Below, in pieces: positions 61,451-63,387 of a stretch of 64,000 bases of DNA. Source of the DNA: Glossina fuscipes (lineage: Eukaryota; Arthropoda; Insecta; Diptera; Glossinidae); contig NW_023998414.1 of assembly GCF_014805625.2 (NCBI RefSeq), forward strand, positions 18,495,161-18,559,160, in the 5' to 3' direction. The notes beneath the pieces are model-generated. The model worked only from the letters and a program-made list of their open reading frames with translations. It did no database searches and had not been told where the DNA came from. Position numbers and translations under genes: made by a program. The stretch's first letter is position 1. Each line of letters begins with the position of its first letter.

Positions 61451-61560
61451 CCGTCCCTGACCACATTTTTGAAATGCTAAAAGCCGAAAAGTATTTTGTT
61501 CGACATTATTTAGTTAGCTGTAAGGAAATCAATATTGCCTTTATAGCCTACGAAGATAAG
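61451..61560 (+). CDS. Rop: Rop alternative exon 4a (divergent version)
   Basis: This 110-nt exon follows a long pyrimidine tract ending ATTTAG and precedes a weak GTACTT donor. Entered in phase 1 from exon 3, it encodes 37 residues starting AVPDHIFEML and ending EINIAFIAYEDK, leaving in phase 0. It aligns with exon 4b at both ends (P-x-x-x-F at the start, KEINIAF near the end) but differs in the middle, where it is two residues longer (KYFVRHYLVSC). It has no internal stop, and its conserved residues are the structural ones. I read it as the first of two mutually exclusive exons. The Rop sequence I remember from Drosophila matches exon 4b, so this is the unusual version. Transcript evidence is not available here. 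Confidence 0.85.
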
Positions 61561-62806
61561 GTACTTAAAAATAATTCCATTTTCATTTTGCTTTTTCTTG
61601 GATTCAATCCAAGTAACAGAAATTTTATAAGTGTTGTCTGTTCTAATAACATCTGCAGTTCAGTATGAGTCTGCAACTTGCGGCGATTAACACGAAAGCA
61701 ATACTTTCCCCTTAACGAAACCATTTGTCTTTATGTATTAAAACCCGAAATGCCTTTAACTGTATCTATGCTTTTGTTACATTTTATATATTTATTTCAT
61801 TTCTGAACTATTTATTATCACGTGATGTTAACTCAATTTATGTAACTCTAATTAAACCACTCACTCACTGATTCACTCGCTTCTATGCCTTGTTTCACTA
61901 TACGAAGGTTTCAGTTTCAGGTTTCTTTCTAATTCTAGGAATAGCAAAAAATCTTAGGTATTTTTTCAATAACATCCGAGCATGTGACCTGCAACGATAA
62001 TTTGAAAGGTGTTACCAGCGAACATTGATTATATATCAATCTGAATCACGCAATTTTTATATTCATAAAGGACAAATGGAAATATTTCAAGCTTGTTGTC
62101 CGACTAGAGTAACCTCCACGAATATACTTCGATCTTTCGATGATACGTACACGTTTAGGACATTTCGGGACAAATGGATAATTTTGTGTCCGTCCCATGT
62201 CTGTCTGAGTTTTCACAGTTATAAATATTAGTTTAATGTATAGAATAATTCTACGAAAAAAAGGATGAAAAGAAAGAGGAAGAAGAGAAATGAATCGTAG
62301 CAATTAAAAAAATGATATTGGAAAATGTCAAAGATTTTCATGTTTCATATTTATATTAATTGAGCAAGCCTCATGCGAAAGATTGTGAAATTTAATCGAG
62401 AGTTCAGAATAAGAAAGATGATAAATTATCCATAGACAATTTGAGAAGATAAGTAAGATAGTAATATACAATAACTAATATATTTATTATTTAGGTAATA
62501 ATTTCAAATTATTTATCTTTAAATTTTTAGAATTTCTAAAGATACTTTATTTTTTGTTAAATTTATCAAATGAATCCAACGTACTGAAAGACCCTATAAA
62601 GACTATTGTGTGATTAGCGTAAACGATCTGTCCATGCGTCGTATCTCTACCAGTCCGTTGAAAGCGTGAGAACAACTTCAGAGGTATTTTTATATACCTC
62701 ATCGTTTTGCAAATAAATAGTTCACTTAAAGTACTAGCGGGCGGTATTGAAAAATTCGGCAAAGGCGAATGTTACCATCTTTTTATTTTTTACTTTTGAT
62801 TTTTCC

Positions 62807-62839
<33 letters not shown>

Positions 62840-63283
62840 TAATTATAAATTTCTTAAAAGAAAACCTCTTTGTAAAATCGAATATTTTCAGCGAAGCAAT
62901 GGTAAGATTTTAAAATACTCAAAAGAAAAGTCCTAATGTTTCCCAATTTTTTATTTAAATCAAGCATGTAGCGTACATGCCACGTTATTTAGATACAATT
63001 TTATCTAATAGTGTTTTAGCGTATTTTTCAAAATATCTTTCAACCCCTTATTATATAAAAGCCGAACGTAAGGTTTTTAAAAATATGTTGTAAAAATTTT
63101 ATTTCATTATATTTATTTATTTAACTTAAGCACTTAATGCCTTTATCTAATGTCTTGAATTTACAATTTTCCCATTTTCATTTTTAAAACTTATTGAGAT
63201 GAGAAAAAAAAAAGGAAAAAGAAAAAGAAAAAAAAATTGCAATTTTCTTTTATTTTCATTTCATGAAAAAATTATATTTATAG
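61561..63283 (+). other. Rop intron between alternative exons 4a and 4b
   Basis: This 1723-bp interval contains a long poly(T) run and, just before exon 4b, a purine block followed by a complementary pyrimidine block that can fold into a hairpin centred at 63237-63242. No further exon is seen. Confidence 0.6.
62808..62839 (+). repeat. Poly(T) run in the Rop intron
   Basis: About 28 consecutive T lie between alternative exons 4a and 4b of Rop. Confidence 0.9.
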
Positions 63284-63387
63284 TTTGCCCGGAGGAATTA
63301 TTTAACGATTTGTGTAAATCGTGCGCTGCAAGAAAGATCAAAACACTAAAGGAGATAAATATAGCATTTCTACCTTATGAATGCCAG
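63284..63387 (+). CDS. Rop: Rop alternative exon 4b (canonical version)
   Basis: This 104-nt exon follows TTTATAG and precedes a GTGCGA donor. Entered in phase 1, it encodes 35 residues beginning VCPEELFNDLCKSCAARKIK and ending EINIAFLPYECQ, leaving in phase 0. This matches the canonical Sec1/Munc18 sequence (mammalian Munc18-1 has CPDALFNEL and TEINIAFLPYESQ at the same place). It lies 1723 bp beyond exon 4a. Joining 4a to 4b would put 4b out of frame, since 4a ends in phase 0 and 4b needs phase 1. The following Rop exon, expected to start VFSLDSPD or similar, is not in the window. Confidence 0.93.

Follow-up and report, generated by a model that had tools for sequence, protein, structure and literature searches.

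Mutually exclusive exons commonly have matching phases and homologous sequences. The insect clusters named in the excerpted text of PMC6071210 are 14-3-3zeta, Mhc, MRP and Dscam. Like these clusters, exons 4a and 4b of the Rop gene of the tsetse fly Glossina fuscipes are tandem internal exons, of which probably a single one is used at a time. In a term search, four articles on mutually exclusive exons (PMC3303723, PMC6071210, PMC3228551, PMC3923563) contained none of Rop, Sec1, Munc18 and syntaxin in their main texts. Judged by titles and abstract openings, the literature searched gave no description of a mutually exclusive pair in Rop or Munc18. Munc18 belongs to the core machinery of neurotransmitter release, and the role of its contact with the syntaxin N-peptide is debated.

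Rop gene structure and the two versions of exon 4

The window is the whole stretch of DNA analysed, 64,000 nucleotides at C1:18495161-18559160 of a 366 Mb genome. A gene on its + strand starts at 59231 and extends beyond the window end. The preliminary description had named it Rop, the orthologue of Munc18-1. This identity was corroborated by individual exons matching Pfam Sec1 (PF00995) and by squid Sec1 and mammalian syntaxin-binding protein 1 as the closest solved structures. Coding exon 1 (59231..59258, +) has a start ATG, a GT donor and an in-frame join; it encodes MALKVLVGQ and the first base of the codon for K. Exon 2 (60866..61045, +) is in frame between AG and GT borders. The final base of exon 3 (61126..61281, +) is the first of a codon, and its donor AGG/GTAAGT agrees with the consensus in 8/9 positions. 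Exon 4a (61451..61560, +; 110 nt) encodes AVPDHIFEMLKAEKYFVRHYLVSCKEINIAFIAYEDK and exon 4b (63284..63387, +; 104 nt) encodes VCPEELFNDLCKSCAARKIKTLKEINIAFLPYECQ. The intron between 4b and exon 5 spans 5423 nt, of which the initial part (63388..64000, +) lies in the window; exon 5 is outside at C1:18563971. The remaining exons were joined from the next 10 kb of the same contig, downstream of the window. Numbered within those 10 kb, they are 4811-5330, 5443-5564, 5642-5755, 5834-6001, 6066-6250 and 6548-6770.

Two homologous exons with shared phases, only one of which fits a full protein, had been described from the letters of the sequence. Their coordinates and AG/GT borders were exact to the base. 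Both exons have entry phase 1 and exit phase 0, and each completes the split codon of exon 3. The proposed frame rule of one and only one exon was reproduced: splicing with 4a yields 601 aa and with 4b 599 aa, whereas translation stops after 144 codons with neither exon and after 179 with both. The two full-length proteins share the terminus ...SLSKED. With either exon, a complete Sec1-type protein is obtained, as in the Rop/Munc18-1/Sec1 family.

Homology of the two exons is evident from 13/35 identical aligned residues and a global alignment score of 45, which was reached by 0/5000 shuffles of 4a (top shuffle 33). The assignment of 4b as the canonical and 4a as the diverged version also stood. 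A protein fragment through exon 4 scored 189.6 bits with 4b and 152.2 bits with 4a against squid Sec1. Against rat Munc18-1, the values were 163.9 and 131.2 bits. The 4a fragment was lower against all three vertebrate paralogues, with 111.3 versus 143.5 bits for Munc18-2 and 85.2 versus 100 bits for Munc18-3. A six-frame local scan of open stretches of at least 15 aa, reporting scores of at least 38, found no third version of exon 4 in the window and the next 10 kb; the other best rows scored 38-39, compared with 48 for 4a versus 4b. Searched against the whole genome, the 4a peptide matched only 4a itself; as 4b went unmatched too, this result rules out close copies of 4a and not diverged ones.

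Thus, 4a and 4b are tandem homologous exons with the reading-frame behaviour expected of mutually exclusive exons. Since the frame is kept by one exon at a time only, cells likely choose between two Rop forms. This choice would be regulated by the cell. Transcripts with both exons or with neither would meet an early stop and be removed by nonsense-mediated decay.

Splice sites and possible exclusion mechanisms

The intron preceding 4a (61282..61450, +; 169 nt) has a T-rich acceptor tract with 13/16 pyrimidines at -20..-5, compared with 7/16 for 4b. The donors of both exons agree with the U2 consensus in 7/9 positions. Steric interference and U2/U12 incompatibility are unlikely causes of exclusion, because the intron between 4a and 4b (61561..63283, +) is 1723 nt long, too long for the former, and both exons have GT-AG sites, U2-like as judged by eye. 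Of 156 inverted repeats at 61282-64000 of this single genome, the longest 25 were all T-rich/A-rich, and no docking/selector pairing was recognised among them. CTCTA and TACT repeats occur at 63496-63565, about 110 nt 3' of 4b, and could be a binding site for a splicing regulator or simply a microsatellite.

Exon 4a in annotated proteins of flies

The spliced 4a protein is identical, letter for letter, to the NCBI entry 'ROP isoform X1 [Glossina fuscipes]' (P0003), to which PF00995 is also assigned. Exon 4a is therefore present in public annotation, within isoform X1, and any novelty would lie in its description and meaning. A protein search with the 4a part returned 3/3 candidates: G. fuscipes ROP isoform X1 (100% identity), G. 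brevipalpis ROP (93%) and Episyrphus balteatus ROP isoform X1 (56%). Searching from Episyrphus gave four proteins at E up to 10 among 14 candidates; new were Zeugodacus cucurbitae ROP isoform X1 and a Bemisia protein. These searches depend on shared exact words, and a fly that was unmatched, Drosophila included, may still have 4a.

The preliminary description had named a missing or broken 4a in close relatives as evidence against the pair. Checked on proteins, 4a is present in three fly families, to which we assign Glossina, Episyrphus and Zeugodacus; order and family names are used here as general knowledge. Identity to the 4a of G. fuscipes is 34/37 in G. brevipalpis, 22/37 in Episyrphus and 21/37 in Zeugodacus. 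CKEINIAF and E-D-K are kept in 4/4 fly rows.

4a-like segments beyond Diptera

A search from the Bemisia segment returned 21/21 candidates, and F-[IL]-A was present at the 4a-specific site in 16/21. These are Bemisia, Lycorma, Adelges, Clastoptera, Frankliniella, Thrips palmi isoform X2, Anabrus isoforms X1 and X3, Blattella, Periplaneta isoform X1, five lgn proteins and Episyrphus. The other 5/21 have LPYEGQ (Darwinula), TPYESQ (two Pristionchus proteins), IPNESQ (Brassicogethes) and VPYEEQ (lgn P0017). The Pristionchus proteins P0024 and P0026 have a C before KEINIAF as in fly 4a, yet they read TPYESQ; this C may recur independently. 4a-like segments were thus seen in four insect orders besides Diptera. 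The set was retrieved with a 4a-like query, so the share of insects having 4a cannot be read from it. The contigs behind six lgn-only proteins (558 to 593 aa) measure at most 1.9 to 5.0 kb, and these proteins are presumably products of spliced transcripts. Holders of F-[IL]-A with isoform-numbered models are Anabrus, Adelges, Periplaneta, Thrips and Episyrphus. Outside flies, 4b was seen in Frankliniella only, and isoform numbering elsewhere is at most a hint.

The Frankliniella fusca protein P0008 (660 aa) contains ACPDKLFQDLAQAPVAKYIRTLKEINIAFIAYEEQ, then 38 intron-like residues, then VCPEELFNELCKSCAAKKIKTLREINIAFLPYECQ. The 4a-like segment comes first and the 4b-like segment second, matching the order in Glossina. 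The presence of both segments with the intron-like residues is probably a gene-model error. Glossina and thrips are identical in 32/35 residues of 4b and in 18/35 of 4a; 4b is thus nearly frozen, while 4a has moved. All 13 non-fly insect 4a-like rows, a set without Brassicogethes and with Frankliniella 4a and lgn P0017, share 18-24/35 residues with Glossina 4b and 15-18/35 with Glossina 4a. Their tie to fly 4a therefore consists of the F-[IL]-A site and the exon order of one thrips model. Compared with the two thrips segments, most non-fly rows are nearer to 4a; Blattella, Periplaneta and lgn P0023 are almost even (+1) and Lycorma is slightly nearer to 4b (-4). A tree of the segments (35 columns) grouped the 4b of Glossina with that of thrips (97/97) and united the four fly 4a rows (100/99). 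It left 15/21 inner branches open, nor did it group fly 4a with the remaining 4a-like rows.

The exchanged region of Munc18 domain 1

Exon 4 aligns to residues 109-143 of rat Munc18-1. In rat numbering, we take C110, F115, V119, I127, L130 and E132 to line the N-peptide site. Domain 1 of rat Munc18-1 comprises residues 4-134, with the syntaxin N-peptide bound opposite the central cavity (excerpt of PMC9623535). A Leu or Phe of the N-peptide sits in a hydrophobic pocket of domain 1 (excerpt of PMC4224468). Mutations of the Munc18-2 pocket abolish syntaxin-11 binding, according to work cited in the excerpted part of PMC3890652. Residue-level confirmation of the pocket positions was not found in the literature searched, and PMC8416022 does not contain the relevant terms.

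At positions 110/115/119/127/130/132, Glossina 4b has C, F, C, I, L, E and Glossina 4a has V, F, K, L, C, E, with 119 in a low-confidence stretch beside inserted residues. Exon 4a thus retains 2/6 of the assumed pocket residues. All four fly 4a rows keep the residues of rat F115 and E132, differ from 4b at 110, 119 and 130, and are 2 or 7 residues longer. From these residue differences and the extra length, a changed N-peptide pocket is predicted for the fly 4a isoform. In the non-fly 4a-like rows, most of the assumed pocket residues are those of 4b, so a changed pocket may be a trait of flies only. The constant difference of these rows is FIAYE-like instead of FLPYE, with LP replaced by IA at rat 138-139, just past domain 1. 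A structure prediction of P0003 (24-row alignment) had a mean pLDDT of 42.4 and a pTM of 0.28, too poor for any inference.

Other loci

Upstream of Rop, two related frames about 4 kb apart (49947-50942 and 53955-54872, +) have THAP and P-element-transposase-like HTH domains and are possibly P-element-derived. A frame at 37677-38108 (+) matches Pfam FEZ (E 6.5e-33) and is probably an exon of a FEZ/unc-76-like gene. A simple motif scan did not reveal Ras2, the neighbour of Rop in Drosophila, which may nevertheless be present. A Sec1-family gene at C29:1940-3574 has few interruptions over the Sec1 domain and 2 stops within the match. It was considered as a retrocopy of Rop; this was dropped, as the gene reads like Vps45, a tentative label.

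Alternative explanations

The best explanation, with a probability of about 0.7, is that 4a and 4b form a tandem homologous pair, likely mutually exclusive, and would give two Rop proteins that differ only in the last part of domain 1, the predicted N-peptide site. Exon 4a could instead be decaying or rarely used and mainly lower Rop output through frame-breaking splice products. It changes faster than 4b, and some combinations of the two exons do break the frame. Such a decay is very improbable, given that 4a is open, has usable splice sites, completes the protein and is kept in three fly families with its conserved motifs. The age of the pair is a separate question. Diptera and thrips may each have duplicated the exon independently; the tree has too few columns to unite fly 4a with the remaining 4a-like rows, and the non-fly rows have more residues in common with Glossina 4b than with Glossina 4a. 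Separate origins are nevertheless unlikely. The 4b residues shared by thrips and Glossina include V1, SCAA and CQ, which are partly or wholly missing from squid and rat. F-I-A-Y-E occurs in the 4a forms of both and is missing from the squid, rat, ostracod and nematode rows, and 4a lies upstream of 4b in both. A single ancient pair is favoured by the F-[IL]-A site, the special 4b residues and the exon order of one model, not by overall similarity, and 4a/4b is likely an ancient mutually exclusive pair of insects.

What the exchange does is less certain than the pair itself. A true mutually exclusive pair could act on the hinge between domains 1 and 2, or on protein stability, with the N-peptide pocket left as it is. 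In the 16 F-[IL]-A rows, LP to IA at rat 138-139 goes along with altered residues 142-143, which lie at the beginning of domain 2. Outside Diptera, the assumed pocket positions are mostly 4b-like. The combination of 4b-like pocket positions with a constant change at 138-139 makes a hinge effect a serious rival. It is somewhat improbable as the full explanation, as the four fly rows have residues unlike 4b at 110, 119 and 130 and a longer segment. A changed N-peptide pocket in the fly 4a isoform is thus still the preferred prediction, and the exchange of 4a and 4b would alter syntaxin binding. The altered pocket is predicted to bind Syx1A, or another plasma-membrane syntaxin, differently.

Comparison with known systems

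A natural splice switch at this place would provide isoforms that differ only at the end of domain 1, and the debated N-peptide contact could be tested in vivo by removal of a single exon. The legend excerpted from PMC6250423 uses the singular 'coding exon' for Drosophila Rop, which weakly suggests that the introns at the 4a/4b site were lost there. Should the pair be missing from Drosophila, findings made in that fly would not describe the insects that have 4a and 4b. We tentatively propose that the pair is several hundred million years old, that it provides two syntaxin-gripping surfaces as a splicing counterpart of the vertebrate paralogues, and that it went unnoticed because Drosophila lost the pair together with the introns; as a whole, this proposal is doubtful.

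Compared with the Sec1 family, tsetse Rop has two alternative versions of the end of domain 1. To our knowledge, mammalian STXBP1 has no such exon pair. As far as is known, insects have one Munc18 gene of this type and mammals three, so exon choice would supply by splicing what gene copies give: it would be a splicing substitute, within the single insect Munc18, for the mammalian copies. The vertebrate paralogues Munc18-1, Munc18-2 and Munc18-3 likewise provide several versions of the syntaxin-binding domain, but as separate genes.
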